A stretch of DNA of 64,000 bases from Arthonia radiata (Eukaryota > Ascomycota > Arthoniomycetes > Arthoniales > Arthoniaceae), in NCBI GenBank assembly GCA_002989075.1, contig PSQN01000016.1, positions 3,116,336-3,180,335 on the forward strand. The letters run 5' to 3'. Shown here piece by piece: positions 24,701-47,879 of this stretch (positions are counted from its first letter, which is position 1; each line of letters starts with the position of its first letter). Made by a program: the position numbers and the translations under genes. The notes below the pieces were generated by a model. The model saw only the letters and a program-made list of their open reading frames with translations. It was not told where the DNA came from and ran no database searches.

Positions 24701-27700
24701 GTCAGAGCCAGTCCGGACGAGATATGCTGCGACAATAAAGGTGGCACAACGATGGCGAATGCCTATCCAGGTACTCGATGCGATCCGGCTGCAAAGTGAC
24801 AAGGTTGGAGGGTCGAAGACAGGGGAAGCTCCAAAATCACTGTGCAGAGCCATTGCAGGATGCCTACGGCTGCTGCATTTAGCAGACTGACCAGAACGAT
24901 GCTCTCAAGCACCTGCACATGCCCAAATATGACTTTACAGATAGGTATTGCGGTGCCCGCGGAGCGGAAATCGTGAGTAAGACATCGCTTTCACGTTGTA
25001 TCCCCTGAACGATCTGTAGACGAAATATTCTAACAGTCCATTGCTGCCCGTGGACGCAGCTCAACATAGCCCCTGGGCTCCAGCTATATAGCTTCTTCTA
25101 CTGGCACATTAAAAGTGCGCGTTCAGACTAGCCTGTGCGAGTCATCCAGATTTCCGCTGTGAGCGGAGTGATAGCCTAGTCTGCCCGAATAGGTGAACGA
25201 ATAATGTATACGATTCTTATATCGCAACTTGGCCTTGGCGGAGATACGAAGACTGCTGTGCGCTGTAGTCGTCTCATCTGTGAGATGTCGTTGCAAGGCG
25301 ACCCAGGGGCTTGCTTACGAACTATGTATTACACGAATCCTAACCGGAGATTCTGGCCAAACCATTGAGCGTTCAACGCGCCTTCTTGTCAGCGCCGAAT
25401 GTCACTGTGATGCTCGTCATCGTTGACAGTACATACTCAGCGAGACACACAAACGTCGATCATGCTCACCAAGATTACTTAGCCGAATGATTGAGCTCTC
25501 ACTGGAAGTACGTTGCTGCGAGCACTGGAGCCCCTCAAAGTTGGCGGTCGACACGTGAGCCCCAAAGACTTGCGACCCGAGTGAGGTGCAAACCAAGCGC
25601 TTGCATCTGCATATGACGGAAGAAGTCTGGGTTGTTGAGGAAACATCTCGAAGTATATGAGCGGCCAGAAATAGGTTTAATGCAGGACGCAAAGTACCAA
25701 TGGATTTTCGCCCTGCGACGAGAACCACGCAGGGGCTCGTTCGTTATCTGAGCTTCGTGCCTTGATGACCAGGTGGGAGCTTATCGGGAAAGTGTCGCAC
25801 GCTGCTGCTGCTGCTGCTATTCATCATCAAACTCCAGTCCTATACAGCTTCCTTCGATTTGAACATACATGAAGAAACACTCGCCCACATGCTGTCAGAC
25901 CTGCTCTAGACCCGTGGGTTACTCGTAGCAGAACTACAAATCCCCTCTGTTTCATCGTCACGGGTTTGCTTGCCGCGACGCCTTCTTCACTTGTAATGAA
26001 TGTCTTCTCTGAACGAAGATTACTTGTGTCTTTTACTGCCTTTGCAACACCCAGGATACGTTTGAGAAAGCCTCGTATTGGCATACGACACAAAGACTGG
26101 TTGACTATTGGCATTGAAAGTCGCAATACGATTACTACCAATGTCGACTCATTTGCAGGGGATGCACCCACGGATGTTTCTTGACATCCGCATGTCAGCA
26201 TCAAGGTAGTGCGTGCTTGAATAGATGCAGCACCATGCTGTCGCTGAGTAGCATCGCAGCGTGAACTTGTAAGAAGATTATGCGCATGTCTTAGTATGCG
26301 AAAAGACGACGAGCTGTTCAGCGCGTGTCCCGACTCCTGAGTGACGCGGGCATCCCCTCAAACAGGCGCGAAATTGAAAGTGCAATCCCTGTGGGAATTT
26401 GAGTGCTAACCCAAAGAAATATGAGGACTCACAATCCGCAAGCTTTGACAGAGCCGTGTTTCGACTCCTTCGGAGTAGAGCTGTCGAATGATCAGGCCGA
26501 CATTGGATGCTCTCGGGGACAAGTCAGCCGATGTCGGCGCGTCTTCATGTCAATAAATTGCCTTAGGGGCTAGTATGATACCAACAGCAGACAACCGGCG
26601 GCTGTCAGGATCGCAGGTATGAAGAGGGAGAGCGCTGATACGGAATTCGATCGAAGGTTAAATTTACTATGTCGTGTAATAATGCCGAAAATCACTCGCC
26701 AGTGCACGATAAAAGATACCTACAACAGCGCGTTCTACAAAAGACAGCCCAGTGAGGTTACCTGAGGTCTGGCCCCTTCCCGTGTGATTCCAGGGCGATC
26801 AATGCGCCGCATCCTTTCATGAATGTCTGTCGCAAGCTAGCTGCTTTGCTTGGGATTGAGTCTTGACGGCGACTAGGCTTGCTCTGGGTAGCGAATACAC
26901 GTTGTTTCGATTGTGGAACATGCAGGAATGGACACTTTGAAAGTCGCCAACGGAATGCCATTGCGGACGAGAGGGAGATGCGGCAGATATCACCCTTAGG
27001 GGATGTACTGAAAAGCTGACAGTGGTTTGACTTGTATCGTTTTTGCTGTCAGTGGCTTGCGCCCACATCAGGTCGGCGGAAATCCGGGTCAGCATCGTCA
27101 TTTTTTGACAAGCTATCAAGACCTTATCAGACACCAATATCAGATTGCAGCGAAAGTGATCCAGTGAAGCTGTACTGAAACAATGTCTTGCTAGCCGTTT
27201 TAGACTTGCTCGCCCCTCGAAGCTGTAATAAAACACACAGTCCCAGCAGCATCAATAGTCGCAATGTGTAGAAGTTGACAAAGCTGATGCATGCCTCACA
27301 TAGAGCCGGCAAAGCAGTCTGTAGTCAACTCAGTGACGATCGGAAACGTGTCGGGCTAGATGCTGGCATGAGCTGGGCACCAGGCATGATAGCCTACGGG
27401 ATACCATACCTCGAGTCCGAGCGGATAGTAACCTAATCGTCAGCATAAGCGACCTGAGGTGACATGTACGGATGCACAATGCCCGGGGTCGCACATTTTG
27501 GAAGATCTGAAGTGCGTTGCCAGTGAGTATCGCCGCGCTCGAGGTGCTCGTTTGCGTGTGCACTGACAGCTGGCTTGAGACTCACTTGGCCTCCATGATC
27601 TGCGAACACACTCCCCTCGTTCCCTGCGAACCAGTCCAGTCGTGGGAATCTCCACGCGTTTGGAAGTTCGAAAACGAGTCCTGATGGCGGACGCTCACAA

Positions 27701-28908
27701 TCTTGCTGGCAAACAACGTCCACCGTGAGGTGTTGTAAAAGGTTGGCGTCTCGAGGAGCGGGTGATGATATTTTGTTCTTGGAACCTATGCAAAGAAGAA
27801 CGAGGAGGCAACGCAAGCTTTTACGTTTCCGAGGGGCTCAGGTAATATCTACCCTCATGTCAACACTGGGCTCCTAAATCATACCTCGATCAGACCTGTT
27901 AGCACCAGCGTCTGCGCCAAATCAGCAGAGTCTTGAACGCTGATGATGAGGCTCATCAACGGTCTGTGCAACAGCTTGATGTATGATTGCTTCACATTAC
28001 ATTTCCATTCGCGGCTCTGCACCAGGATACGTGGTATCCGTGCCCCTTCTCGCTTTGTGTACGTCTTTGCTGGTTTCTGTCCAGGTTCAGGTCGTAACCC
28101 TTGCGTTGGACAATGCCTGCGTTTGCCATGGATTGCGGTGCTGTGGGCTGTTCCATTAAATATCATGGGAAGATGAGAGTACGAATGCGACTCTGATGTC
28201 AAAGGTAGGAAGGAGTGCATCTAGAAGGTATGGCATGGAGCTAGGGGATATCGGGATAGACGTTGTAAAGATCTGCTTAGAGCTTCTTGCCACACCAGAC
28301 CACTTGAAGGCGCGTAAATGCTAATTACCCACACGTCTAGTGCTCGTCATTAGCACGTTCGTCCAACGCTCATATAGTAGAGGCCAATGCTCGTCCGCTC
28401 GTAGGCATATCCTGGCCAAGTCAAAAGACCCAAAATATGCTCGCTCAAGTCGTCAAGATGATGATTTCACTTTGACGAGTATTAACTGATGGGAAGGGAT
28501 GACATGCATTCATTCGCGCCGGAAGAAGCTGGCTGGCTGAGGTGGTAAGTGGCTGGGAGACGGTCAAAACACGCGTCGCGTATCAAAGACGACGCGCCCT
28601 TCGCACGCTTGGTCTTGTGACATCTCGTCAATGTCTTCCATCGTGGGCAGGCTACCTCTCGGAGCAAATGTTTCGCAAGCTGCGATGACTACGAGAAATT
28701 TTAGTATTTGACTGAGGAGTTTGAAAGCTGCGAAAACCCGCCGCTTACACTTTGCACAGACTTTGCGCTAGGCCGCTTTTAGCGATCCTCCCTTTACCAG
28801 TCACCGAGTGACCAACTCGTCTCCCATCCCATCTTTACTTCAGACTTCTCCTGTAGTGTTAAGGTACTTCTTGTGGGATAACTTCACCGTTACTCCGTAC
28901 TATCAGTC
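21780..28908. other. Gene-poor region, about 7.1 kb
   Basis: I could not support any gene here. Frames on all strands are short and mutually overlapping. Local features are three copies of CGTTGCACGC-like sequence at about 22985-23012 and a (GCT)n run at about 25803-25818. A minus-strand stretch, 27780 down to about 27440, reads protein-like (LTVDVVCQQDC, GLVFELPNAWRFPRLDWFAG) but has no ATG in frame. No transposon coding sequence is recognisable. The base composition, roughly 50% GC by eye, is not the extreme AT of heavily RIP-mutated DNA. Confidence 0.4.
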
Positions 28909-29613
28909 ATGTCTCCCACCACACTCATTGCGATCGTCCCCTTCACGGCCCTCCTCGCGCCCGGCTTCACGCGCAAGCTCGTTACAGCCCTCAAGAAGCA
29001 ACCAGATGGCTACGCCTCCACTATTCTCTTCCCCCCAATCATCTTGATTGCAGCCACCATAATGCTGTCCCTACTATCCTTTACCTGGACTTTCGCCGCG
29101 TCATTAGCGTCGCAAAAGCCCTACCTCTTCCTTTTTGCGTCCGGCCTACCCGATGTCTGGCCCTGGAACACGTTACTCAGTGCGATTGGCTCGCGCATTA
29201 TCTCGTTGATCACACGAAAAGAGGGGGACACTATCCTCAGCGAAAGACTCGAGGGAACGCTCAGCATGCTACTCAGTGTTTCCATCACAGCTGCTGCCGG
29301 CCCTCTGTCAGACATAGGCGCCTTTTTCGCCTTGTCCTTAGCGGCGTTCATCGCCAGCGGGGACAACCCGGACGATCCAGTTTGGAATGTCAATTCGCTT
29401 GACTCGCTTTTTGCTGGCACGCGCTTGGAATACCTCATCCCGGCTATCGTCGTTCCCTGGATCGTCACGGCCGTGGTGCTTTGCAGAGTCGTTGCGAAGA
29501 GGGCTGCGCAACATAAGGAGAAGGAGCAATGGATTGAAGCCAACAGCAGTGGCGAGCGATATCACGATGAAGAAACCGCGGGCGGCGCGAATGCTCAGGT
29601 CGCTGACATCTGA
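28909..29613 (+). CDS. Small multi-pass membrane protein, paralogue of the 47.1 kb gene
   Basis: Single exon, 234 aa. The N-terminus MSPTTLIAIVPFTALLAPGF runs into TRKLVTALKKQP, then a long hydrophobic segment (FPPIILIAATIMLSLLSFTW). Two or three further hydrophobic segments follow, the last being YLIPAIVVPWIVTAVVL with a charged tail (KRAAQHKEKEQWIEA). It aligns by eye with the protein encoded at 47145-47879: ALLAPGFTRKLV against ALLTPRYVQRLI, LSFTWTFAASLAS against LPVLTFAAGCVS, and similar last helix and tail. I do not recognise a named family. The two genes bracket the run of small paralogues between them. Confidence 0.65.
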   Translation: MSPTTLIAIVPFTALLAPGFTRKLVTALKKQPDGYASTILFPPIILIAATIMLSLLSFTWTFAASLASQKPYLFLFASGLPDVWPWNTLLSAIGSRIISLITRKEGDTILSERLEGTLSMLLSVSITAAAGPLSDIGAFFALSLAAFIASGDNPDDPVWNVNSLDSLFAGTRLEYLIPAIVVPWIVTAVVLCRVVAKRAAQHKEKEQWIEANSSGERYHDEETAGGANAQVADI

Positions 29614-30209: not shown

Positions 30210-30659
30210 TCATTTGCCCAGTCCCGTCGTCTGCACTGTTGAATGTTTTTCTGGGAAAGGCTCGAACTCCTTCTTGATAGCGGTCTTCTTCAACTTTCCA
30301 TAGCTCGCCTTAGCAGTGGCAATTTTGCCTTTCAGATCGAGCTCCCTGGATTGTGTCAGCCGGCAGCGTGGTCGTACAAAGGCCGCTGCCGCCATCGCGC
30401 TGACGAGTAGGGGAGAAGAAATGGCATATGCAGCGGAAACGTACTCAAGAACAGCGACCGTGGGCATTGTGCCAAGCTCGCAACTATTATATCGATCATG
30501 GGAAGCTTCCGTAGCCAGCCTCTTCATAATTGCTTTCACTTCATTGCTTTCACCGAAGGTCGAGGTAAGCTTCTGTGTGAGAGTCTTGTGTACCCAGATA
30601 TTGAAACCCTCTGTTGGGCCCTCGAAGTCGACTTCGTCGTACATGATGTGCAGCGTAGG
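30210..30659 (-). CDS. Cluster-family protein, copy 1 (5' exon unresolved)
   Basis: Two exons can be read on the minus strand: 30659-30445 and 30345-30210. They are joined in phase 2 (GA|G) over a 99-nt intron. The protein part reads PTLHIMYDEVDFEGPTEGFN, IWVHKTLTQKL, then MPTVAVLE at the intron and ELDLKGKIATAKASYGKLKK after it. An acceptor CACTAG lies directly before CCT at 30659. An upstream donor GTATGA near 30729 would give an intron of about 70 nt and an N-terminal exon, possibly from ATG 30876 (MSDSKKTLRNYAFPSG). I did not fix that part. Without splicing, a TAG at 30662-30660 interrupts the frame. The function is unknown. Membership rests on the PTVAV motif before the conserved intron. 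Confidence 0.55.
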   Translation of the reverse strand, partial: PTLHIMYDEVDFEGPTEGFNIWVHKTLTQKLTSTFGESNEVKAIMKRLATEASHDRYNSCELGTMPTVAVLEYVSAAYAISSPLLVSAMAAAAFVRPRCRLTQSRELDLKGKIATAKASYGKLKKTAIKKEFEPFPEKHSTVQTTGLGK

Positions 30660-31556
30660 CTAGTGTGGTATTGTGATGGTTTGGTGGGTCTGCTGGGTGT
30701 TCTGCAGAGGCGGTAAAGCTTTCATACGTGCTACGAGGTATACACCGATTCTTCAAATGACGAATGTTCTTCACGTCGTTAGGCTAGCGTCATCAAGGAC
30801 TCAAAGCCTGCAGGCCGCTGAGGACCGCCCCAGAAGGAAATGCGTAGTTTCGCAGTGTCTTTTTAGAGTCTGACATGTCCATCAAGTCATTGCGGACCAG
30901 CCAGAAATGGATGACCAAAACAATGTTTCACGTTCTCTGAGAAGTCGCACACGTCGTAATAGCGGCCTCTCAGGCCAGCACGATATTCAGAAGACAGACA
31001 AGGCAGAATTGGAGCAGTAACGATCATCGACGGACGAGACACGAGGTCGCTAGTGTATCTCACGTGCAACGATTGCGCAGCCGCCAGCCTAGAGCACTGT
31101 ACCTATCAGTTTGGCTTACTGAAGCAAGTTTGACTCCCTGTACTAGGACACATATCTTACTGCTTTTGCGATCTTGCATCAACAGACTTGTCCTACATGA
31201 CGCTCGATGATGACAGGCTGACCGTGTCCACTCCCTATCCGTGCCAGGTGTCCTCGACATAGACGCCTGCCACGAAGCTGACTCCACTGGACGCTAGTCG
31301 AGGTGGCCGGATCTGAAGCTTCATTGCACAGCCTCATGGAGAGCAGAGACTGTTTCAGAACGCGCTCCTACATTTTTGAATGCCACATTCTGGTATCGTT
31401 TGCGCACGCGGATATGCCAACCAACTCGTAGTAGAAGATATCGCCATACACGACATGTCAAACTTCCTCGAGTGGCCCTGCAGCGTTACAGATAGCACTA
31501 TGTCTATGAAACTCGCACCCTTGATCCTCAGACACCAAGAAAGGTCTCCGGTCTCA
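30660..31556. other. Interval between family copies 1 and 2
   Basis: It probably holds the 5' exon of copy 1. A minus-strand frame near 31020-30887 (RAGLRGRYYDVCDFSENVKH) resembles a second exon of the family, but no acceptable first exon was found upstream of it. Confidence 0.3.
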
Positions 31557-32228
31557 CTAAAACTTATTGAACCTCTCCGACTTACGAAGCTCAAACGGCA
31601 CATGCAATTTGCTTTCATGAACCTTCGTCATCAACTCCGGGAGGTGCGCTTGCTCTCTCGAATCGCTCGCGATAGTGTAGTGTACATGGCCATGCACGAT
31701 ATGCTCCAGAGCATTGGGCGCGTTATCACCTTCGGGGCTGCTGTATATGTATTCGACGTCGATGACGCTGACTGTTTCCGCGTCCGCAAAACTGCGTGTC
31801 TCGGCCCCCCAAAAGCCACGCACCATGTACCAGCATCTAACTGTGAGGGTCAGCGAAAAAAGGGCGCGAACAAAAATGATCGCCGCAACGGCGGAGGCGT
31901 GGCTGCCGTTGAGCCTCTGAATCTCCTTGCGGTGATCTTAATACAAGTCTCCGACACGTTTGCACGGACGCTCGACCACGAGTTCTCGTGCTTGGCATTG
32001 CGCCTGAGCACCGTCTTCGAGTCGTGCGTAGTGGCTGTTCTCGATTCGGAAGGTCAGCTGGGTGCCTTCATGCCTCCTTTGCCGGCGCGCGTTGTGTCTA
32101 TCGCTCCGTTCGTGAGGCCGTCTGTCTTGCGGCAGTTGCCGTTGACTGTTGGCTTTTCGGGCTGGAAGGGCCAAGGCTGTGGGAGTAGATGGTGGTCTGT
32201 TGATGTGGACATGAATCCATATCACTGC
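31557..32228 (-). pseudogene. Cluster-family copy 2, probably broken
   Basis: The minus-strand frame from about 32228 reads IWIHVHINRP, then LTFRIENSHYARLEDGAQ and RVGDLY. It meets a TAA at 31942-31940 and continues in the same frame as DHRKEIQRLNGSHASAVAAI. That last stretch matches the helix and strand before the conserved intron of other copies (for example IYNQCKTEIDAHHG with NAAIIK in the 37.6 kb copy). The second part, SVIDVEYIYSSPEGDNAPNA to the stop at 31557, matches the post-intron strand. The in-frame TAA, with no splice site near it, suggests loss of function. CAA to TAA is one possible origin. The opposite strand has a 289-codon open frame, which I take as a shadow. Confidence 0.45.
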
Positions 32229-32544
32229 CGGCCTGAGTCTGGATGTTGATGTCTATGAGTTCGGAAACGATCTTCAACGTCCAAGATTTGGAACGCAGCG
32301 ACTCGAAGGCTCACTATGGGGCTCGCTGTGCCAGGTGCTTTTAGCAATACGTGCGGAATGCACTGTGCATGCGGGTTGCGCAATAATAAGCACACTCTTA
32401 AGGGTCAGGTTCGCATGCTGACAAATCTCCAGGCGAGAGATTACACCAGCCTGAAACAAGATTATCCGTTATGAAACGCTACGAAAACACAAGGACCACG
32501 GCAGCGGTTCACCCCTGCGTAAGCCAGATGCGAACTCCACACCC

Positions 32545-33271
32545 TCAAAATGGTTTCCCATCAAGTCGATCCTGATCGTTGGGTGTCTTCCCAATCTGTC
32601 TCGTGTTTGTATGCTTCCACTTGACTCTGTTGTGGCTTGCAAAGTGCACGACAATCACGGGCACCGATCCGCAATCGAGCTTCGCGTCACCTTCGCCGCT
32701 GTGTACTGAGTCAGCCAAGCTTCAGCCTCCCACCGCGAACGTGGTATCCACACGAAAGTCTTGCAGTAACAAGGATTCACAAGGCGACGCACTTTACAAT
32801 AGCCGCGGTCACACCACCTTCATGTTCCTGCTCAATAGATGCCTTCATGGCTGTGTACTGGTCGAGGATGCGTGTTCCCAGCTCAGCTTGTATCTTTCCC
32901 ACATCTTTGCCATATTTCCTCCAGATTGCGGGGACGACGTACAAATCCAGATCGCCAATATGCCCGCAGTGTTGCCACCAGACGGAGCCTCCAAGGTGGA
33001 TAAAGTTATGTCCACTCTCCACCAGAGTAGAGCGGCGCAAACGATTCATCGAATAGAATTTGTTGCTAGTATTGTCGCGAAGCAAGGACAGATCTAGTTC
33101 ACCGATCAGGTAGATGGGATCCGTAATACGATATTTGGAGGTCAATCTTAACGCTACTTTGAAATCCTTTGATTCTACGTTGATAGATGCAGGTTTCGTC
33201 ATCCCAGACAGCAACGCTTTCACTACCTGGCATGTTTGTTGGTCAAAGACGTCACGCTCTTCACGTCGCAT
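32545..33271 (-). CDS. Cluster-family protein, copy 3 (210 aa)
   Basis: Two exons on the minus strand: 33271-32793 and 32698-32545, joined in phase 2 (AA|C; donor GTGCGT, acceptor ACACAG). ATG 33271 gives MRREERDVFDQQTCQVVKAL. This copy has a longer N-terminal half than the others. Before the intron it reads GDLDLYVVPAIWRKYGKDVG, ILDQYTAMKASIEQEHEGG and VTAAIVN. After it come SVPVIVVHFASHNRVKWKH and DRLDGKPF before the stop. The Tyr-x-x-x-Lys/Arg-x-x-Ile helix, the Gly-Gly turn, the Ala-Ala-Ile-Val strand and the intron position agree with its neighbours. No signal peptide or membrane segment is evident, and the function is unknown. Gene structure is intact. Confidence 0.65.
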
Positions 33272-34174
33272 ATCGCACTATTTTGATCACGGCGACATCT
33301 CATCACGGCTCAAGCATCGCCTCCCAAGGCGCTTCGTCACTTGCTCGTCCCGCAACGTTGCCGAGAGATGAATCGCCGCATGAGCGTGCGGAATCTGTCA
33401 ATATCATTGCCATTCGTTGAAGTATTTTAAAGCACAGGGGTACCTCGCGTTTGCTACTCTGGGTGGAATTTGCGAAACGGATTTATCACTGCGGCAACCG
33501 CCGGCAATGCTGTAAGCATGCCCTCTCCGACCCCTTCTTGTGCGAGTCGACTGGAGACGGCGCACACAAGTAGTCAGAGTGAAGTCGAAGGTCTCTAGAG
33601 AGAAAGATGCCCAGACAGTGGAGTGCGGATGACTCGGATGATGCAGACAACGTGTTGTTTACCTGCCAAGGCGGTAATCGAATCAAGCCTAGTGAGAATA
33701 GTGCTTGAATAGGAGTACGAAAGCTGCGCCAGTAGCAACGTTGAACGTGATCGTTCACAAAGGTGATCAGCTTCTTCGGCCCAAAGAACGCCATGTAATG
33801 AACCTTCGGTGTCGCATATATTGTCTAACCTTATCACAGCCACATGTCAAACTCATCCCGCGGGCCTGCTTCCCGCATGATGATCAGGCCGAAGCGTCAG
33901 ATACTAATGTGCAGAGGGGCACAGTCGAAGCCTTGGTGTAGGAAGGTTGGAATGTGCCCAAATCGTGTTGTGCACGTCCCTTGGCAAAGGCCAGGAACCT
34001 CATCAAAGCTGCCTCGTCACTTCACATCGCTGCTCTGCGTCAAAGGCTCGGATGGCACATCGTAATGATTAATGCCGCAAGAGACAGAGTGATGATAAGG
34101 CGGCCTCCCATGCCGTGATCAAAGCGTTTCATTCCCACCCAGGCCAGACTCGGCATACGATACTAACGCACAGG
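33272..34174. other. Interval between family copies 3 and 4
   Basis: It contains one copy of the 25-bp dispersed motif (33650-33674). Minus-strand frames at 33486-33843 are open but not protein-like enough to call. Confidence 0.3.
33650..33674 (-). repeat. 25-bp dispersed motif, copy 1
   Basis: Plus strand reads ACGTGTTGTTTACC, then TGCCAAGGCGG. The minus strand contains GTAAACAA, which is the core of a forkhead site. It lies about 380 bp upstream of the start of family copy 3. Confidence 0.5.
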
Positions 34175-34657
34175 CTACCAGTCAGAAAGACTGAGCTTGC
34201 TTTGATCCAGCTTAATATGCGTCATAACGTTCCCTTTCCATTTCTGCAAAAAGCTGCCCTTGTGCTCGAATATTACTGCGGCACCAAACTCTGTCTTTCC
34301 GTCCTTTCCTTCACCTTCGGGACCTGACACTGGTCTATCACCTATTCCGCTGCTTCCACGTCAGTATGTTCTTCGTTGCGCTTTGCATAGCTTCCTCATG
34401 TGCTCGCGTCGAAAATTGATTGCATCAACTACTCACACTATACGCACAGCGCCAGTCTTGTTCCCGCCGTTCTTGGCCTCAATGGCATCTTTCAAGGCGG
34501 GAAACTGCTTCTCGATGGCCGGACCAATCTGCACCTCTATGTTCGCGGCTGCCGGGGCTTTGAAACGTCTCATAACGACGGCATTTGCGTAGAGCTCGAG
34601 ACCGTTGGTCAATGTGCCGCAATGTGTTCGTGTTATGGTGCCGGCGATGTCCAGTTT
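34175..34657 (-). CDS. Cluster-family protein, copy 4 (5' end unresolved)
   Basis: Two readable exons on the minus strand: 34657-34437 and 34349-34175, joined in phase 2 (GT|C; donor GTGAGT, acceptor AAGCAG). The protein part reads KLDIAGTITRTHCGTLTNGL, ELYANAVVMRRFKAPAAANI, IGPAIEKQFPALKDAIEAKN, then GGNKTGAVRIV at the intron. After it come KTEFGAAVIFEHKGSFLQKW and LDQSKLSLSDW to the stop. An ATG at about 34719 gives MPSNSGKDAPTLPDTEPVG in another frame. That start needs either a one-base frameshift, or an acceptor at CAAG before 34657 fed by an exon further upstream. The second option would match the intron position seen in copies 1, 2 and 8. Confidence 0.55.
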
Positions 34658-35557
34658 CTTGTTCCCACGGGCTCCGTGTCAGGAAGTGTCGGGGCGTCCT
34701 TTCCAGAGTTGGAAGGCATGGTGCTCGCAAACGGTGGGGTTAAATTTGTACGGGCAAAAGGTCGATAAAACGGTGATGAGTGCGGAGGGCATGATGTACG
34801 GAGTATGGAGGAGGAGAACTTCGGAAGGAATGTAGGTAAACCCGTCGAGTATGTATACTTCATCCTGCACCATCTGAACACTTGGCTGATCCAGTGACAG
34901 AGAGCAAAGCTCACGGTGCGTATGTCTTCGAACACGCGTGAAACGTTAGACACAAGTCGGAAGATATGGGCAAAGCCAGCTGTCGTCCGAGGTTGTTTTG
35001 CAGCTGCGTGCAGGACCACATCGTCGTTGCCTGTGCTTCGTAACAAGCAGTGTGCCTTGGTCGAGTTCTTCTGGATCTTAGCGGCAGCAGCTTGGGCTAT
35101 AGCGTATAGAAGGATGTCACACACTAAGGGATGACGCTATAGCGTACGTGAGAATTTGCAGTTTTTTTAGGGCCAAACGTCAATACGTAACCTGCTCATT
35201 GCCGGATACAGCGTTGAACCCGTGGGTATGGATCCTATCATGCGGGCGCTTCGCAAAGATCGATCATCGAGTTTTGCACTTGCGTGTCCTTTTCATAAGG
35301 CATGTCTCACTATCAACCCTGCACTGTAGCGCAATACTGCCGATGCGAGTTTCGGGAATGCATTCATATTCGCAGGCCCTACAGAGGTACGCAGGTTTGG
35401 TCATATACCCTGTGTGCGAAGTGTGATGATAACAGAGGAAACGGTTTCATGATTCTCTCAATCAGCTGCATGAACTATGCTAGACTTCTTGTCTCTATGC
35501 TATTATCGTATTTACGAAAAGTAAACCGCTAGCACAGACGGGAATAACGAATGAGAT

Positions 35558-35582
35558 ACGTGTTGTTTACCAGCCAAGGCGC
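35558..35582 (-). repeat. 25-bp dispersed motif, copy 2
   Basis: It reads ACGTGTTGTTTACC, then AGCCAAGGCGC, identical to copy 1 at 23 of 25 bases. Both copies lie upstream of minus-strand family genes. Confidence 0.5.
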
Positions 35583-36023
35583 TAACCCTAGCGGTCGTCA
35601 CGGCCGCGACGGCCCACCCATGCTTATTGCGGCTGGCAGCTTTGCCTACATTGATCCGTCTACTGCGTATCTCTCTCATACTCGCAACCCAGTCTTGCGG
35701 GCCGAGATTCCGCACTATGATGATAGTAAGTATACCGCGAAGGCACACGTGTCACAGATTATCCTCGGAAGTGAAGTTGACGGCACAGAGCGGCCTTAGA
35801 CAAGATGTATGACCATGGTGGTCGTCGCATGGATGATGTAAGACTACGCACACTCCATTTAGATCATCCGGCGATTCAATTCTATATCAGCCTCAGTCTT
35901 CAAACTCTACCCAAGCCTCGAAAGCTCGCATCGCGGCGTCGTACACCAGCCACCTGGCGACTTCTCGTGAACAGGCGGACTCCGTAACCGTGTCTCAATC
36001 CAGTTGCAACGTACGTCGCTGAC

Positions 36024-36473
36024 GTGACTGCTGGTGTGTCCATGAAGGATTGGCTGTGCTACGTCTCCAGCTGGTCATGTACACGACAGCTGGCACTGCA
36101 GCTGACAGCGGCTGCTTTAAATTGGCCGGCCCAATTCCTCTGGGCTTGCACCGTCGCTCTAGTTCTACCACTTCCCAAGTTATGGCTAGACGCGATTGTG
36201 TATGCAATCTCCCGGCTCCATTCGTATTACAGCGCAGGCGTGGCAGCGCTTCTCCATCCGTTGATCACTTTGGCGGCTAGCCTTCTCTGTTCGGCAGAAA
36301 GCTATCACGCTACGTACTACGCAACAGTGCCCGAATTCGACGAACACAAGAAGTGTGTTTTTGTCAGCATGGTTGAGGGTGTAATGATGGCGATCGACAG
36401 ATACGGAAGCAAGGACCCAGATCCCGTCATTGCGCCATTTACGGGTCGTGGGTCCCTCCAAGACCAGGGTTGA
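36024..36473 (+). CDS. Hypothetical small membrane protein, doubtful
   Basis: An open frame of 149 codons with two strongly hydrophobic stretches (LQLTAAALNWPAQFLWACTV with ALVLPLPKLWLDAIVYAI, and YYSAGVAALLHPLITLAASL). It has no recognisable domain and no homologue in the window. It ends 3 bp short of the stop of the converging copy 5. It could be chance. I list it because no other gene occupies the stretch. Confidence 0.25.
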   Translation: MTAGVSMKDWLCYVSSWSCTRQLALQLTAAALNWPAQFLWACTVALVLPLPKLWLDAIVYAISRLHSYYSAGVAALLHPLITLAASLLCSAESYHATYYATVPEFDEHKKCVFVSMVEGVMMAIDRYGSKDPDPVIAPFTGRGSLQDQG

Positions 36474-36475
36474 TG

Positions 36476-37105
36476 CTACCGCTGATCTAAAGCTGGCTCC
36501 TGCCACTTAGTCTGGTCCGGCTTCAGCGCTTCCTGGTCCTTCATCTTCTCCAGTATTATGCGGGAGTCTTCGCCTCTGAGCTGATGATCTCTGTTCGTGT
36601 ATTTGTACGTCACTTTCGCAGAGTAGAGCAGCCGAGGTTCAAGCCAGAGCTCTTTCACTTCCCTTCGCTGGTCTTAGCCCTATACTCATCATATAGATTG
36701 CAGTCTCTCGTAGCATAGAGCTCGACGGGCTTACTTGGTAAGGAGGGGTAACTTACTCGAACACAGCTGCAGTGGTCCTGCGCTTGTCGTGAAGGCCATG
36801 GGAGCCGTCGATCTCAGCACTACATTGCTTGTACACGTAATCGACCTGTGGGGGCATTCGCATCAAATGAGTGAGTACGTGTTGTAATCTGGTCAAGTGT
36901 AGAGGGACTCCGCGACATAGACAGTCAAGCCCGCCGGTTTGTTTGTAATATGCAGATGCGCGTGATCGGCGCGTATCTTGTGACTGCGCCCAAATTGGAA
37001 GCTATGGTGCTGAGACTGATCGTTGAAGTCATGATGTCGGCGACTCTTCGGTTTCAAGAACGCGAAGAATGCCTTGAATCGCTCAAACCCGGAACTCGGA
37101 GACAT
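36476..37105 (-). pseudogene. Cluster-family copy 5, apparent frameshift
   Basis: From ATG 37105 the minus strand reads MSPSSGFERFKAFFAFLKPK, a basic stretch, HAHLHITNKPAGLTVYVAES and stops at TGA near 36900. A neighbouring frame then continues without a gap as LTRLQHVLTHLMRMPPQVDY, VYKQCSAEIDGSHGLHDKRR and TTAAVFE. It is spliced in phase 2 (GA|G at 36757 to 36662) to EVKELWLEPRLLYSAKVTYK and a stop at 36476. The two frames match successive parts of intact copies, so a single-base shift near 36895-36905 is the simplest reading. A short intron in that gap (GTCTAT...CACAG) is possible but would delete the helix that other copies have. The helix YxQCxxEIDxxHG is very close to copy 6. Confidence 0.5.
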
Positions 37106-37602
37106 TGACAACAGCTAATGATAGTAGGGCACATTGATTGACACAGCTTCTAGACTTCGACGCCATATTTTCGCTGCGAAGCTATCACAGCAGCAGATCA
37201 TTGGAGTCGCGGCTTCCATTCAAACAAATATGGCGGCGCAGCTCCGATTTGTGGTGAGCTACACGTGTCCGAACTTCAAGCAGTCGTAGGACCGATGACA
37301 GGGTTGGCCGCGGACTCAGGAGGAACGCCAATTACGGTATGTCGAGCAGATACCCGGCTGAGGGTCGGGTGACCTTCGTATGCCGCACGTTGGGGCCAAG
37401 CAGCGAGCGCTCTCCGACTGTCGTCAAGAGCGTTGTCCCAGCAAACCTTCGACTTGCGTCTGCACAGTAGGGACGCATAGCGCATGACAAACGTTGATGT
37501 CTGTGTCACCGTACGTGAGCGCTTATGCTTCCCCACGAGTAAAATTCCGGACACACTCTGCGGAAAAGTATCACGACATAAGTCCAGGAAGCCATCAAGA
37601 GA
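37106..37602. other. Intergenic, about 0.5 kb, between family copies 5 and 6
   Basis: Promoter side of copy 5. One short minus frame (37276-37554) was not accepted. Confidence 0.35.
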
Positions 37603-38213
37603 TCAATGATGTGTTGAGCCAAACCTAGCTCTGTATAGATCACCTTGTCCTGAACCCGGAAACGCCTGCCTTTCCAGGACCGCTTTGCGCACGCCGCCTT
37701 TGAATGCGTCTTCTGACCATTTCATATGCTCTAAATCACCGTACTTATAGTCGACTTCTGCGATCAAATGACCAGGGTCCCCTCTCACTTCCCTGCAGTG
37801 GCTGTCAGCGCTTGCAGTTCAAGCTACTACAACTTTGATGCCGCGCCTTAGTCGTTGGGAACTTACTTGATGATAGCGGCGTTGGTTCTGTGAGCCCCAT
37901 GATGGGCGTCTATCTCGGTCTTGCACTGGTTGTAGATGTTGAAAATCTCCTGACCCATCGTCGCTAGGAGCCCTCTGAATTCATTGTAATCTCCACGCTT
38001 CTGCACATCTTGCGCAACAAAGACGTAGAAGTAGCTGTCCACCGCGGTCAACTGATCTAGCGTATGCTGGGGATGCAAGTGTAGATGAGCGTTCTGATCG
38101 TATGAGGTGTCAAGAAAGAACCGACGTCGCTTGGTCCGAGGTGGTCTCTCTTCTTTCGCTGCTCCGCTCCCACTTACACCTAGGAATTTAAAGTAGTCCA
38201 TCAAATCCTTCAT
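37603..38213 (-). CDS. Cluster-family protein, copy 6 (178 aa)
   Basis: Two exons on the minus strand: 38213-37867 and 37792-37603, joined in phase 2 (AA|G) by a 74-nt intron with donor GTAAGT and acceptor CTGCAG. ATG 38213 gives MKDLMDYFKFLGVSGSGAAK and a basic patch RPPRTKRRR. AHLHLHPQHTLDQL follows, then SYFYVFVAQDVQ, FRGLLATMGQEIFNIYNQCK, TEIDAHHGAHRTNAAIIK at the intron, EVRGDPGHLIAEVDYKYGDL and a stop after GSTHH. This is the cleanest copy and serves as a reference for the family: variable basic N-terminus, His-rich strand, amphipathic helix, Ala-Ala-Ile strand, conserved intron, and the strand E-V-x-Y-x-Y. No known domain is recognised. Confidence 0.75.
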
Positions 38214-38946
38214 GGCTATGCTGTCTCTGTGGAAGTATCGTGATTGTCGATTAAGCTGCCATCATCTGTTCCACCAACGCGGCGAGCTTCCACAGGCTTG
38301 GAGACAGTAAGATCGAAGCGTTTGAGGAATATAATGCGGGATATGTTGGCACATTGCTGACCTCGAAAGGATCTGTCCACGTGGCTTGTTCGGCAATGCT
38401 GTTGCCTGGGTCAGCAGTGTCACAAACCTCGGTCAGCATGAGACATGATCGACATGTCGGACGGATGCTCTATCTATAAGACATGAGCCTTGCGTGTGCA
38501 TGCACATGTCTCGGCTGGACTTTCTGACGTTGAGAAAGCGAGTGCATTGGTTCCGAATGAGTACTAGCGCGAGCAAAAAGTGTCTTGCGCATATCATGTG
38601 TTCATGTTGATACTGATCAGCTCGACTATAGGCTGTGGGAGTTGTCTAACATCGCCCTGATGGAGACGCGTCCAGATACCCGCATTTAGCGGCACATGAT
38701 TGGAAGACATCCGTAGTGACACGTTGAATACTTTGGCCGTACTCAGAAGTTGCCTGACCTCAGCATCACGAGCGCTTGGAAACTGTTTGAAATCTTCAGC
38801 GGCAGCGTAGAAGCTTGCAACGCAGATCTGTATCAACAAGGAAGTCGTTGTGCGACAAACGCGTCTTAGGTTCAGCATCTATAGCAGACTCAGCCGCCAT
38901 GAACATGGCGAATGATGCACTGACGATCGCCGACCTGGCTCAAGAC
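38214..38946. other. Interval between family copies 6 and 7, with possible relics
   Basis: A minus-strand frame with ATG at 38878 (94 codons, stop at 38594; SFYAAAEDFKQFPSARDAEV, SLRMSSNHVPLNAGIWTRLH) and another at 38439-38251 could be remains of a further family copy. No conserved intron motif links them, so no gene is called. Confidence 0.3.
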
Positions 38947-39476
38947 TCAAAAGGGGCATCCAGGCAGTGCCTCTCCTTCTCCATCTTTCCACACGTACCC
39001 TAGCTTCTGTTTACTCTGAAAATAATCATCTTCCGCGATCATGCGAACCGCCTCTGCACGATGTAGTTTTGAACCTTGCCGATGTTTATACACGACCTTA
39101 CCGACCACACCTTGCGAACCATCCTTCTTCATGGTCTTGAGCGCCCTGAAACAGGTCAGATTACAGTTCAGCGCGGCCGCCATCTGCAGTTTCCGTAACA
39201 GATGACCTACACAATAGTCCCATCGGTCGGCACTTTCCCGCCAAGTTCAGCTACTATATCTTTCAATCCTTTCTTGTCTTCGTCGGGGTCAGGACACAGT
39301 TTTTCGGCATTAAGGGCGATGGCCTGGACCGCCACTCTGATCTTCTTCCAGTTGTCTTTGTCTTGGTGCAGTTCGCGTGAGACATGCATACGTAGGGTGC
39401 TGTTGGTGGCTAGTGGGTAGTCTGTCTCCAGTGGTGTGGGACTGCCCAGATCAGTCAATCTGCGAAGGAAACCCAT
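38947..39476 (-). CDS. Cluster-family protein, copy 7 (154 aa)
   Basis: Two exons on the minus strand: 39476-39211 and 39145-38947, joined in phase 2 (GT|G; donor GTAGGT, acceptor TTTCAG). It reads MGFLRRLTDLGSPTPLETDY, LRMHVSRELHQDKDNWKKIR, VAVQAIALNAEKLCPDPDED, GGKVPTDGTIV at the intron, then ALKTMKKDGSQGVVGKVVYK, LHRAEAVRMIAEDDYFQSKQ and KLGYVWKDGEGEALPGCPF. It is clearly paralogous to copy 9: both have KKDGxxGVVGKVVYKH, EAVRMI and KxGYxW after the intron and MHxSxELH before it. No signal peptide or membrane helix is seen. Function is unknown. Confidence 0.75.
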
Positions 39477-42394
39477 CGTGAACGGGTGTGTGGAGAACTT
39501 TGATTGAGATGGAGACTTTTAGGAACGGGAGATACAGTTGCTTGACGCGTTCAAAATCTCAATTATGGCAGCGGAGGGTGTTGAAGTAGTCGCACTTTCA
39601 CCAGAGTAAAGCTTATCTAGGGATTGATAGCTATGGTGGCATGTTCAGCGCGAGACGACGACATGTGGATACAGCAGCCACATCGGAGTTACGGACTCTT
39701 CGATAGGATTAGTCCACGTTTCGCTGGCGAGAGGCTTTTCTCGCAAGCTAACAACCCTAAAACGTCACGACCAGCAGTCCTCAGTAGACGGCGCATGGAA
39801 CTACAAATTTCAAGTCCGCAATAGGAAAGGCGTTGCTCGAGGGAAGCGCATGGGGCGATTCTGTCCCGCGAGTATGCCTATCAAGCACTGCTGTGGTCGT
39901 TGACACCTTTAAGTTCTCACAAGTCAGATCATCCATCACAATAATCTCCTAGGCATTGCGATTTGAAAGCAGCCTAACGGCTGCACGGAGAAAGAAATGA
40001 GTTATAAACAAGCTCTGACGTCCTCAATCTTGGTGGAAGCGTGGAAAGACGTTCAACATGAGCGTTGACATATCCCAGGCTTTTGCTATATGTTAGCAAC
40101 GCATCGAGCTGAAGCTAGACTTTATGTTGGCATGAAGTGAGCTATAGTCAGAAGGTCATATATGTGAACAGGTAACGCATATCGACATGATGGGTATGAG
40201 AAGTCGCGTCTCCGACATCAGCCACCGCTGATCGAGCCTATGGCCGCACGAAGCGTCATCTACTCCACCATTGCTACTTACCATCTTCACTGGTCGCCGG
40301 TAGGAATGAGTACATCCTCTAAAAAGGTACCGGTTAATCAGCCTGGCCGTCTGCGGATCAGTCCTTAGGATACACAGTTGGCAACTTTCTCAATCAGCAC
40401 TACGCTAGACCAGTTGCCACAGCGCGTCAAAGCGTACAGCCGGAACAAATACTCAAGGAAGGGAGAGACGTAGACTAAGTTCCAAGCTACCAGGGGTCCG
40501 CTCTGGGCTTCACGCTCATAGTTATATCCCAGGGATAGTCCAGAAGATGCTTGGCGGCAGGAACGATGCGGGGCGAAAGGCCCGTAATTGCGCGCAAGCT
40601 ACCCTCGCGTCTGTCCACACAGGCCCGTTTCAATCTGGCGGATGTCGATCTTGTTGCGCAAGATCCTTGGCGTCTGAATGCACTTTAGCATCAAACAATG
40701 AGACATCAGTTGAATCGGCAATCAGCAGTTCTCCGTAGACATTATCACGATGAGGACATATAAGACCCACGCCTTGCCTTGCTCTGCCTTGCTCTGCCTC
40801 GGTCAGGCCACGTCCGGAAAACATTAGGCGAGCTCAGCCCCAACGTCAAGGTTATGCGTCACGTTCTGAGATGAGAGCCTGACATGCAAAGATGGACACG
40901 TGGGAAGCTTGTAGTTATGAGACGAGGTGCGACGTGAAATGGCAATACCGAGTTCGATGGATATCTTGGTTCGATGGCGAGCACAGCCCTTTCACCGGCT
41001 GATTGAGCGCCTAGGGTCAAGGCGACTCTGATGTTTCATTGGACCTGGCGGATTCGCGACATGCCACTTGTATCAGTCCTGTGAAAGCCCCGGGGAGAAG
41101 AAATCTGGAGGGAATTTCGCCTCGCACACTTGAAACGTGTTGTTTATGTGCCAAGACGCTACTCCGCTGGCGTAAGGTTCTAGCCTATCATAGTTTAGTG
41201 TCTTCCAGCCTGCTGTCTTGTCAGTGCTTGTCTCTATTTTAAAAACGTCTTGTGACAAGGAACGTCTACCTGTACAATCAAATGCCTGCCAGAGTCTGTG
41301 GACAGCTGTTTGTACCTTTCGTGAGAACAATGCGCGCTCGCCAGCATCATTGTCTCTTCCCAGCCGCTGCCAAATCCTTTCAAACGTATCAGCCGCAAGG
41401 ACTTTATGAACAGGGCCAGATTGTCTTCAAGCCACAAGCTTCCGACAGACGCCACCTGTCTCCACATACCGATAAGATCGTTCGGTCGTCTCTAAACAAT
41501 CAAAGAGCTGCTGTCGGAGCTGCTATCGAAAGAACAGCGGCATGAAAGACAAACCCCACCGCCAGCGTAGTCCGCAAAAAGTACCGCCATTGATACGGAC
41601 TTCGAACCAGTCTACGTATTACCGTGTAGCTTGGAAGCCAATCTAGGCCTATTGGACGCTTGTTCTGTTCGGTTACCGCTCAGTAACCCTTCACCGCGTC
41701 TTCTTACTGTCCATCCGACATTAACTTGCCAGCAAGAAGCGAGTGAGTATTCGCAGTGCATGAAGCTTGCTGTGCGTATCGGCATAGCTTATCGACCCAG
41801 TATCAGGGCCAACCACCGCCAGCAGAGCACTGGTGTAGGGTAAACCCATCTTACCATACTAATACGGGGTCAGCTACAAAAGCTCTTGGGTGTTCTATAG
41901 GTGTGACAGGTATTAGAATGCTCCTACGCGTCAGACTCGATATCTGGCATGGCACTTTCAACTCGTCTAATCGCCTGGCGCCTCACCGCTTTGAGCAGTC
42001 AGTACGCGATCTGAGCCCGTGGACCTACGTCGACATGCACAAAACTTATTTCCAATATGTCATTTTAGGAAGAGCGTTGAGGTGTTGGCATCTTTGCGCT
42101 ATCAACTGAGTTCAATACTTTCAAGTAGCGCTTCCTTCCCGGGTCGCTAGCCGAGCACGTAGATTCAGTATACCAGTCTCACTCGGTTTGGCCCATGACC
42201 GCGGCGATATTCCTAGCAGTCACGACACCGGCGTTACTATCACCATCTTCTGCTCGACGTAACAGGCTTGGATAGTCCTTTTTGACACACCGTAAGACGA
42301 AGTTGATATCGCGCTCTCTAGAAATCTCATCAACGTTGCACGGTCTCCTACCAGCTGATGTCGCCGTGCTCTATCTCAGTCTTTTTTGCAAACA
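39477..42394. other. Interval of 2.9 kb inside the family cluster, no intact gene
   Basis: A minus-strand frame at about 40770-40630 (NVYGELLIADSTDVSLFDAK, then DLAQQDRHPPD and stop) resembles a family second exon. Frames at 41467-41234 (GRHLIVQVDVPCHKTF) are weaker candidates. The third 25-bp motif lies at 41135-41159. Nothing intact is seen between 39.5 and 40.5 kb. Confidence 0.35.
41135..41159 (-). repeat. 25-bp dispersed motif, copy 3
   Basis: It reads ACGTGTTGTTTATG, then TGCCAAGACGC. It shares the flanking blocks ACGTGTTGTTTA and GCCAAG with the copies at 33650 and 35558 but differs in the centre. Confidence 0.4.
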
Positions 42395-42901
42395 TTATTC
42401 TTCATGGACCGTCAGGTAAAGCGGCTCGCGTAGGTTATTTGTGCTCTGTAGGACTTCATCGGAGGACTTCAACTCATCCAAATTGGCAGCGACGAAGTAA
42501 ACCTCCGCCTCATGCTTAGCTTTGTCGTCGTAGCCGAAAATACGACTACGCTCCGGTTTAGCTTAACAACGCCTAAAGTTCACGCTGTCGAACATTAAAC
42601 TTACTGAATGACAGCCACAGTAGGTACCCCTCCGAGATTATCCTGAATGTCCGTTTTGCGTTTCTCATATTGCTCTTTGATTGGTTGCAGTAGGCCTGCG
42701 ATGTGAGGTTGAAGAGGGTGTTCGAAACTGTGGTATGTTTGCGTCAAGATGAGAACTGGAATACCATTCCATAGTGTGCCAATTTGCTTGTAGGCGGTAC
42801 TATTGCTCAATTTCACGTGCTTTGATTTATCCATTCCGAATTCTGCCTTCGCGGCCTGGACAAGCTCCTTCATCTTTTTCATAGTGGCAAATACATGTAG
42901 C
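42395..42901 (-). CDS. Cluster-family protein, copy 8 (5' exon unresolved)
   Basis: Two readable exons on the minus strand: 42901-42605 and 42545-42395, joined in phase 2 (CA|T; donor GTAAGT, acceptor CGTAG). The protein part reads LHVFATMKKMKELVQAAKAE, GIPVLILTQTYHSFEHPLQP, HIAGLLQPIKEQYEKRKTDI, QDNLGGVPTVAVIH at the intron, then RIFGYDDKAKHEAEVYFVAA, LQSTNNLREPLYLTVHEE and stop TAA. There is no ATG in a suitable place before LHVF. An acceptor TTGAG at 42902-42903 suggests an upstream exon, perhaps within 42.95-43.2 kb. The PTVAV motif links it to copy 1, and the Tyr-Glu-x-Arg-Lys-x-x-Ile helix to copies 3 and 6. Confidence 0.6.
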
Positions 42902-44297
42902 CTCAATCAGCAAAGAGAATATGCACAAAGGGAATCTCGCCGAGTATCTTGACGAAAAGGAAGGATATGCTAGAACATGTCCGTGACGGATGATTATCTT
43001 GCGTTTTGTAATGGCAGCAAACCGCAGGTGTCCAAATCCATTATCATTACCAGGTGGCTTTATTGTAGAGCAAAGGCGCTGTTGGAGGCTGTTGGAGGTA
43101 GAAATCCGCCAAAGCCGTGTCTGCCGCCCCATTGATGATTCGTAGTCAAAAATGCTGTTGCCTAACGGCGGCAACGAAGGCGATTCCGCCACTAAAGCGG
43201 GAATGTACAAGTTCCGAATCAAGGCTTTGCACAGTAGCTTCGCTTTTTCCTAATTTCCATATTCCTCTTAAGTGTGTGTATGAGCGCACATCGGTCTTCG
43301 CATGAGACATATTGCTTCTCGTACTGGACTGTATACTACACTTGAAGAGGGTAAGATATAGAGACATCTTGTCATCGCTTGCACTGCGTCTTCCAGTAAC
43401 CAGGCTACCGCGTCAAAAGTATTGTAGTGACATGTTGGAGAAGCACGTACACGATCTTGTCCTCGACCGCTTGGTACTCAGACATCTGACAGCTCATCGT
43501 CAATGGCCTGAAGTACACTTCTTATGGGCGAAGATTGCTCTCTCATGCGCTCTTTCGGTGCTTATAAGCCTGGCAAAACCTTGGTATAACATTGAACAAC
43601 AGAGAGGTGGTGACGACCGTCGCAGAAAACATTTCGGCACAATAGAGCCTGTCGCACGCTGACGCCACGTGTCGCCTGCAAAAGAACATCGACTGCACAT
43701 GTTTCCTCATACATGTCAGCAATGCGTCTGAAAGGGCGTCCAATCGTCAGACATCGCTTGTAAGTTGTAAGCACACGTGTAGGAATGTCAGCACTTGTTC
43801 CAAATCCGGGTCTTCGCAAGTAAGGATTTGGAGATATGGCCCGCGCGCCGGGGCATAACAATGCTTGAGCATGCGGCTGGACACCGCCCCATGTCCTCTG
43901 TTCTAGGTTAGGACTATGCGATTGCGTAACTTGCGTTTCGAGATCCATGGAAGACCTACGAAACGGACTCCACTCCATGACATTGGGAGAACCATAAGCT
44001 TACCATGGATTGCACCTGGTTCAGACTGTTTCTGCCTGCTGAAGGAGCCCGTGTCCGCAACGTATCTTCCACGTGCACAGCGCGGATGAGGCCACCGTAG
44101 TGTCTCGGTCCATCATGCCATCGGGAAACCTTGCCCTCATTGAGATTTTCTGTCTATTTCAACGGCCGTCCGCCGTTTGCCGTTCGAGATGGAACTCCAA
44201 ACACCACGAGCAGTCTTCTTCCTTGCCTCCAACTCCACCTTCTCACCTATTCTCAACGCCACCGCCCTAGCGAAACCTCCTCAGCCACCTACCCAAC
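42902..44297. other. Interval between family copies 8 and 9
   Basis: It probably contains the 5' exon of copy 8 and the promoter of copy 9, with transcription divergent between the two. Open frames of 60-138 codons on both strands were not accepted. Confidence 0.3.
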
Positions 44298-44888
44298 ATG
44301 TCGAAATTATTCCGTAGAGACACTGACAAGGGCAAAGAGACACCAAAGATACAGCGCACCATCTCCAACCCTGTCAATACGTTGCACAACAACCAAGAAC
44401 TTACGAGACGCGAAAACGCCGTGAGCATCGGCTTCTTATTCCGCGAGAAAGGCTTGCATATGCACATGTCGCACGAGCTACACAAGAGACGTAACGAACC
44501 CGAGATCAAGAGTATTCGTTTGACGCTCGACGCCATCGTCGCCAGGGCCGAGGAGCTGTACGCGGAGGATGGTGAATTTGAGAAAAGCGTAAAAGCTGAC
44601 CTTAAAGGTTGCGAAGCCACTATTGGTGTCCTCGAGTAAGTCGTACAAAACATATGCACCAAACCTGCTCGCGTCATATCGTTGCAGTGTCGGGATTTCA
44701 GCTGACTTAACATCAGGACGTACAAGTACATCAAGAAGGATGGCGTAGAGGGCGTGGTCGGTAAGGTCGTCTACAAACACACGTCGCTCATACACCATCA
44801 CGAAGCAGTTCGCATGATCACGCACGATCCGATACTTGAGGAGCGTTTGAAGAAAGTAGGGTATTCTTGGGAAGATAATTTCATTTGA
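44298..44888 (+). CDS. Cluster-family protein, copy 9, inverted relative to the others (169 aa)
   Basis: Two exons on the plus strand: 44298-44635 and 44717-44888, joined in phase 2 (GA|G; donor GTAAGT, acceptor CATCAG). It reads MSKLFRRDTDKGKETPKIQR, LFREKGLHMHMSHELHKRRN, IKSIRLTLDAIVARAEELYA, CEATIGVLE at the intron, then TYKYIKKDGVEGVVGKVVYK, HHHEAVRMITHDPILEERLK and KVGYSWEDNFI. The second exon aligns almost without gaps with that of copy 7. The N-terminus is basic, as in other copies. It is intact and is the only clear plus-strand member. Function is unknown. Confidence 0.75.
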
Positions 44889-47144: not shown

Positions 47145-47879
47145 ATGACGACAGCACCGCTAGTCACGCTGGCAATCTCGGCGCTGCTCACGCCTAGATA
47201 CGTCCAGCGACTCATCTCAGAGATCGCACACCAACATCAGCCCAAGCCGCTGGTGCCATGGGCGTTGATCTTCAACGCACTGTTAATCGTCACGTCCACC
47301 ATCGTCGCGCTACCTGTCCTCACCTTCGCCGCAGGATGCGTCTCCGCTGTCCTGACAAACTACCATCTTGACGTACTAGGCTCGCCATACTGGACGGTCT
47401 ACTCACTAAACCCTCTCTGGTCTGCGCTCGGTGCATGCCTCGTGGCCACAGTAGCACGCAAGCAATACCACACCGAGAGCAACAAGCTCGTTGAGATCGT
47501 TGCCGGCTTGCTCAATATCGCTGTCACAGTGCCGGCCGCGTCGCCTTCGAATGTTGCGGCCGATGCTGCTCTCAAGATGGTTGATGGGCAGCACATCCGC
47601 CCAGCCTTCCACCAGGCCATCGCAAGCGCACGCCTTCCATCGCGGATCTTGTTAGGATGCTCAGTTGTGGTACCGTTGTACCTTGCGATCACCATCCTGC
47701 ACTTCGTGGTTGCGGATGGCGTCATGCGTGGCCACCAGGCGCACGAGCACTTCAAGGAGATCAAGGCGGACGACTTGACTCGGGATCTTAATGGGAAGCC
47801 CGCCGAAGCGGACACAAACGACGCGGATGATCAAAAAGTGATGGACGCCATCACAGGGAAGTCGCTTGGCTTCTTTTGA
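47145..47879 (+). CDS. Small multi-pass membrane protein, paralogue of the 28.9 kb gene
   Basis: Single exon, 244 aa. The frame extends 53 codons upstream, but the first ATG is at 47145 and gives MTTAPLVTLAISALLTPRYV, matching the N-terminus of the paralogue at 28909. Hydrophobic segments include PWALIFNALLIVTSTIVALP with VLTFAAGCVSAVL, PLWSALGACLVATV, VEIVAGLLNIAVTVPAA and ILLGCSVVVPLYLAITILHF. The tail is charged (EHFKEIKADDLTRDLNGKPA). No family is recognised. The spacing of helices and the N-terminal motif ALL-x-P-x-[FY] are shared with the 28.9 kb gene; overall identity is low. Confidence 0.65.
   Translation: MTTAPLVTLAISALLTPRYVQRLISEIAHQHQPKPLVPWALIFNALLIVTSTIVALPVLTFAAGCVSAVLTNYHLDVLGSPYWTVYSLNPLWSALGACLVATVARKQYHTESNKLVEIVAGLLNIAVTVPAASPSNVAADAALKMVDGQHIRPAFHQAIASARLPSRILLGCSVVVPLYLAITILHFVVADGVMRGHQAHEHFKEIKADDLTRDLNGKPAEADTNDADDQKVMDAITGKSLGFF

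Follow-up and report, generated by a model that had tools for sequence, protein, structure and literature searches.

Tandem families that evolve by birth and death consist of local duplicates in which intact copies stand beside broken ones, and the secreted effector clusters of plant-associated fungi are composed of small, diverged tandem genes whose fold has no name. Lineage-specific genes of Neurospora also form clusters, which are reported to be mostly telomere-adjacent and grouped with HET-domain genes (PMC10684091). Here we describe an array of nine small loci (C1 to C9) found at 30.2–44.9 kb of a 64,000-nucleotide stretch (hereafter the window) of the Arthonia radiata genome. The array is a real tandem family, mostly one family, partly decayed, which forms a self-contained island and is nameless in the libraries asked. 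Eight of the loci lie on the minus strand and one (C9) on the plus strand, as a first-pass annotation of the same DNA had reported; the coordinates and motifs which it quoted are likewise all present in the sequence.

Gene models and the common intron site

Gene models were built by reading three frames and testing pairs of splice sites; the starts and some of the acceptors were the author's choice (Table 1). Complete two-exon frames were obtained for six of the nine loci (C1, C3, C6, C7, C8 and C9), with products of 111–187 amino acids (aa) and GT..AG introns of 59–99 nucleotides (nt). An alternative start exists for C3 (an open ATG 69 nt further upstream) and a second possible acceptor for C6. 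The remaining three appear to be broken: exon 1 of C2 is interrupted by an in-frame TAA and the locus lacks a GTA/GTG donor at the common site, the reading frame of C4 shifts close to the 5' end of its exon 1, and that of C5 shifts inside exon 1, yet its donor is kept. Thus, intact and inactivated copies stand side by side in the array.

In eight of the nine loci (all except C2), exon 1 ends with a strand of the type T-x-[AG]-x-x followed, at the same place, by a phase-2 donor which cuts a codon after its second base, just past the threonine and the x-[AG]-x-x residues. That eight genes with little else in common share this site and phase is the strongest single indication that they descend from one ancestor; no probability is attached to this agreement because the models were picked by eye and by script. 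The first-pass annotation had proposed nine coding loci of one plan. That plan is recovered in eight of them (C1 and C3 to C9), including the six complete frames, while membership of C2 could not be confirmed and C4 and C5 look broken.

The coding character of the models was also analysed. With codon tables derived from 58 long open reading frames (ORFs), 19 out of 20 exon pieces fall at or above the 96th percentile of 1,089 shadow ORFs in codon composition, the first C2 piece being at the 69th percentile; this result is biased because the pieces were preselected as protein-like. A score restricted to synonymous codon choice separates poorly and by itself gives no support.

Table 1. Positions of the array loci, spacer elements and neighbouring genes (window coordinates, except for the window itself)
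Feature	Position	Strand	Structure	Remarks
Window	3116336-3180335		PSQN01000016.1	on a 3,489,740-base contig
C1	30210..30644	-	exon 1 30445-30644; intron 99 nt (GTACGT..ATCCAG); exon 2 30210-30345	111 aa, intact; probable member
C2	31557..32252	-	open pieces 31938-32252 and 31557-31937	split by in-frame TAA; membership unproven
C3	32545..33202	-	exon 1 32793-33202; intron 94 nt; exon 2 32545-32698	187 aa, intact
C4	34175..34719	-	exon-1 core 34436-34672; exon 2 34178-34324	probably broken
C5	36476..37114	-	exon-1 pieces 36896-37105 and 36756-36881 (two frames); exon 2 36479-36652	broken
C6	37603..38213	-	exon 1 37867-38213; intron 74 nt; exon 2 37603-37792	178 aa, intact
C7	38947..39476	-	exon 1 39211-39476; intron 65 nt; exon 2 38947-39145	154 aa, intact
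C8	42395..42882	-	exon 1 42605-42882; intron 59 nt; exon 2 42395-42545	142 aa, intact
C9	44298..44888	+	exon 1 44298-44635; intron 81 nt; exon 2 44717-44888	169 aa, intact; sole plus-strand copy
Spacer element 1	33649..33679	+	31 nt	
Spacer element 2	35557..35587	+		87% identical to copy 1
Spacer element 3	41134..41164	+		84% identical to copy 1
TMa	28909..29610	+	234 aa	left of array; predicted membrane protein (hydropathy)
TMb	47145..47876	+		right of array; predicted membrane protein, TMa paralogue
Choline-transporter-like gene	16791-17612	-		PF04515, 1.8e-79; ordinary gene background on the left
Probable short-chain dehydrogenase gene	45.1-46.1 kb			between C9 and TMb
Fungal rhodopsin-domain gene	50210-51268	+		Pfam PF20684, 4.5e-41

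Sequence kinship among the copies

Sixteen exon cores (eight of exon 1 and eight of exon 2, from all loci but C2) were compared by phmmer with 7,175 ORFs of at least 25 aa from 284 kb of sequence (the window plus 220 kb), the best seven rows being considered for each query. For exon 1, C3 matched C4 (E = 4e-6, and 2.6e-5 in the reciprocal search) and the second exon-1 piece of C5 matched C6 (8e-4). C7 and C9 matched one another in both exons (1e-4 for exon 1 and 3.8e-13 for exon 2). C8 and C4 came in third place for either query (E 0.28–0.29), and C5 and C6 met in exon 2 only at E 6–8.

Eleven exon profiles were also run, with the best 12 rows considered for each. C8 led the outsiders in the exon-1 profile of C3 and C4, followed by C6; with C8 included, C6 became the first outsider (E = 0.049). 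When C6 was included as well, C5 was second (0.42), and it rose to first place (0.084) once C1 had been added too. In shuffle tests (36 pairs per exon with one C2 piece per exon included, 300 shuffles, uncorrected P-values), 14 of the 36 exon-1 pairs and 7 of the 36 exon-2 pairs reached P ≤ 0.05; 25 control sets of random ORFs (100 shuffles, 70-residue pieces) gave a mean of 1.92 and a maximum of 5 of 36. C8 and C4, for example, scored z = 8.7 in exon 1 and were equalled in 0 of 300 shuffles. C5 paired in exon 2 with C9 (0 of 300) and with C6 (P = 0.003), and two exon-1 pairs, C5-C9 (P = 0.007) and C8-C7 (P = 0.013), bridge the groups. C1 paired in exon 1 with C8 (P = 0.007) and C6 (P = 0.017); judging from these two pairs and its intron site, it is a probable member of the family. 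Finally, 12 hhalign comparisons between groups gave weak results, with five E-values of at most 0.051, seven of 0.14–0.54 and probabilities not exceeding 15.4%; the comparison of C3/C4/C8 with C5/C6, which have no common member, gave E 0.0017. Taken together, sequence comparison supports a group C3-C4-C8-C6-C5 and a group C7-C9, with thinner links between the groups and to C1.

Two further candidates were considered. An open piece on the minus strand at 40824-40991 contains LHVRLS, which recalls the first strand of C8, and may be a badly decayed further copy; it is absent from the best 12 rows of every exon profile. A candidate lying 190 kb upstream (L016:3298-3771), which matched C8 at E 0.048 and C4 at E 10, was dismissed as a chance match, since it is missing from the best 12 rows of the four exon-1 profiles built with C3 and C4.

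Searches beyond the locus

Whole-genome searches covered 33.5 Mb in 16 contigs. Single-protein queries with C3, C4, C6, C8 and C9 found array members only: C3 found C4 (E 0.0025; reciprocally 4.1e-4), C9 found C7 (7e-10 with exon 2 and 0.09 with exon 1), and C6 and C8 each matched itself only. Pfam searches with C1, C3, C4 and C6 to C9 returned no significant match, the sole row being one for C8 below the cut-off (E 0.16). The best E-value of a profile search against the sequences of solved structures in the Protein Data Bank was 0.12, which is not meaningful. The first-pass annotation's remark that no described family has this layout therefore stands for Pfam (for the seven copies scanned) and for sequences of solved structures. 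Viral contigs gave 32 pattern matches, and no relative of C9 exon 2 is encoded at any of them; the literature on tandem orphan arrays yielded no paper recognisably about this family, a search which cannot prove that none exists.

Divergence, selection and predicted protein properties

Nonsynonymous (dN) and synonymous (dS) change was estimated for seven exon comparisons of pairs with 25–53% identity. For C7/C9, which are 53% identical in exon 2, dS was 1.19 and 0.92 and dN was 0.65 and 0.47 in exons 1 and 2, respectively (dN/dS ∼0.55 and ∼0.51), i.e. this pair is under weak purifying selection. In the five other comparisons dS was infinite (four) or 2.94 (one). Because synonymous change has thus reached or almost reached saturation in five of the seven comparisons, the age and the speed of divergence cannot be separated. 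Of the earlier proposal of tandem duplication followed by rapid divergence, duplication and strong divergence are supported for eight copies (C1 probably), while 'rapid' is not established. Repeat-induced point mutation (RIP) was considered as a cause of the divergence and rejected, the composite RIP index being negative in all 32 2-kb bins of the window.

A hydropathy scan found no 19-residue segment scoring at least 1.6 in any of the 20 exon pieces, i.e. no signal-peptide-like segment by hydropathy, no dedicated predictor being used. Cysteines are few (0–2 per exon piece). A model of C9 was obtained with AlphaFold from one contiguous translation, which includes a 27-residue intron stretch, and a three-row alignment. 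The order of its elements (two short strands, helices and a strand, then exon-2 strands and helices) agrees with the arrangement of parts described in the first-pass annotation, an agreement to which we give little weight.

A genome-unique spacer element

The spacers of the array contain a motif that was missed in the first-pass annotation and is unique in the genome. It is present in three copies (Table 1). A 24-position pattern (20 positions fixed), written from these copies, matches with at most two mismatches in exactly three places in the genome, all inside the array; its fit to the copies is perfect by construction and the result is that nothing else fits. There was no match on the other strand or for a reversed control in the genome, and none with up to three mismatches in 100 shuffles of the window. 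That the element is a piece of a larger repeat or transposon was considered and rejected, as only 28–31 nt can be aligned between the spacers and the rest is unalike; a 161-nt query found itself only in the genome.

The copies lie ∼0.45, 0.8 and 1.7 kb upstream of C3, C4 and C7 and likewise 0.5, 0.9 and 1.2 kb downstream of C4, C5 and C8. Since they are equally upstream and downstream of minus-strand genes, a promoter or terminator role cannot be read from their positions. Their plus strand contains GCCAAG, which fits GCCARG, a motif that turns up with PacC in publications, and TGTTTA, which is forkhead-like. No claim of a regulator site is made, because six-base cores are common by chance. 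Read on the minus strand, all three copies give a similar peptide, L-A-[GH]-K-Q-H-V.

Flanking membrane-protein genes and locus setting

The array is bracketed by two paralogous membrane-protein genes, TMa and TMb, which the first-pass annotation had overlooked. A simple scan showed about three hydrophobic segments in each protein, the final two rows of TMb overlapping. The two proteins are 26% identical over 137 columns (BLASTP E 2e-8 in a single comparison), and in the whole genome they find, besides themselves, only one another (1.4e-6 and 2e-5). Neither gave a Pfam match above the cut-off.

The island lies more than 300 kb from the nearer contig end. To its left, 22000-28800 is apparently gene-poor, its longest stop-to-stop frame being of 176 aa and without a Pfam match. 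In addition to the genes in Table 1, a Pfam scan identified a fungal transcription-factor domain in the window. HET-domain genes are present in the genome (24 matches listed): none of these matches lies within 1.3 Mb on the contig, and no HET domain was found in the copies scanned with Pfam. The HET-domain genes, the transcription-factor domain and the rhodopsin gene together point to a filamentous fungus.

Interpretation

We lean towards the view that the array is an old tandem family, evolving by birth and death, whose small, soluble cytosolic products are weakly constrained and may have the flanking membrane proteins as partners; on balance we think this probable, with considerable room for doubt. 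One two-exon gene would have been locally duplicated again and again, and birth and death would have left six copies holding their frame and two or three decayed. The intact copies would be expressed and act inside the cell, where each small protein might bind a different or changing partner. Tentatively, they could serve as interchangeable cytosolic subunits or regulators of the membrane pair that brackets them.

Several observations weigh against this reading. By phmmer, C1 found no other copy among its best seven rows, nor did exon 2 of C1, C3, C4 or C8. When profiles of exon 2 were built from C5/C6, from C5/C6/C7/C9 or from the latter with C4, their best 12 rows contained the exon 2 of no further copy. 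C2 is not supported as a member: its 22-residue exon-1 piece pairs with C6 alone (P = 0.03, one of eight), its exon 2 with none of eight, and its three pieces have no other copy among their six best phmmer rows each. The tie of C7/C9 to the rest is thin, consisting of the intron, the pairing of C9 with C5 in exon 2 and a few weak pairs in exon 1: their exon-1 profile finds no other copy among its best 12 rows and no match by hhalign (E 0.2), and their exon-2 profile reaches C5 only at E 4.9. The AlphaFold model of C9 offers no trustworthy fold (mean predicted local distance difference test score 36.7, predicted template modelling score 0.29). The genome searches used single proteins and could have passed over remote copies elsewhere, and the partnership with the membrane proteins is suggested by position and by nothing else.

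The lack of an exon-1 profile match between the groups and the low hhalign probabilities would be expected if two unrelated small tandem families (C3/C4/C8/C6/C5, perhaps with C1, and C7/C9) had come by chance to share one gene-poor stretch. We hold this to be unlikely, though worth keeping in mind, given that both groups place their intron at one common site and in one phase behind the same T-x-[AG] strand and that the shuffle tests connect them, most clearly in exon 2 (C9-C5) and also by the two bridging exon-1 pairs. A once useful family whose intact copies now lie idle in a graveyard, a notion that overlaps the birth-and-death reading, would account for the broken look of C2, C4 and C5 and for the saturation of synonymous change; it is rather unlikely, because neutral change would hardly have spared six complete frames with GT..AG introns despite such divergence, and because dN is lower than dS in C7/C9.

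Secreted effectors or incompatibility genes, i.e. proteins for recognition of pathogens or of self and non-self as proposed in the first-pass annotation, would suit the tandem layout, the divergence, the decay of some copies and the unnamed domains. No direct support was found for this proposal: the hydropathy scan speaks against secretion, HET domains are lacking from the scanned copies and none of the 24 genomic matches is nearby, so that we regard it as very unlikely. The locus has two adjoining paralogous families of its own, one of membrane and one of soluble proteins, and a repeated spacer element that is unique in the genome. These features might suggest a selfish or poison-antidote locus in which membrane proteins have soluble partners, which from the sequence we would call extremely improbable. 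There is likewise only a slim chance that tandem-diversified, interchangeable cytosolic proteins, the bordering membrane pair and the spacer element make up a two-component unit for recognition or poison-antidote action.

Comparison with known systems

The locus offers a well-bounded unnamed family whose copies have diverged nearly beyond recognition while keeping one intron, inside a pair of membrane paralogues. Should relatives have kept this layout, the locus would lend itself well to the study of how orphan tandem families originate and of whether they form systems with their neighbours. The array resembles the effector clusters of plant-associated fungi in its small, diverged tandem genes and differs from them in that its proteins have few cysteines and, by hydropathy, no signal-peptide-like segment. 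Like the lineage-specific clusters of Neurospora (PMC10684091), it brings together genes for proteins in which few domains, or none, can be recognised; unlike those clusters, reported as mostly next to telomeres, it is far from a contig end and 1.3 Mb from the nearest listed HET match. Local duplication, the mixture of intact and broken copies and the presence of one inverted copy are as in tandem birth-and-death families, but here the copies are very diverged (25–53% identity in the pairs aligned) and the array is enclosed by members of a second paralogous family, that of the membrane proteins.

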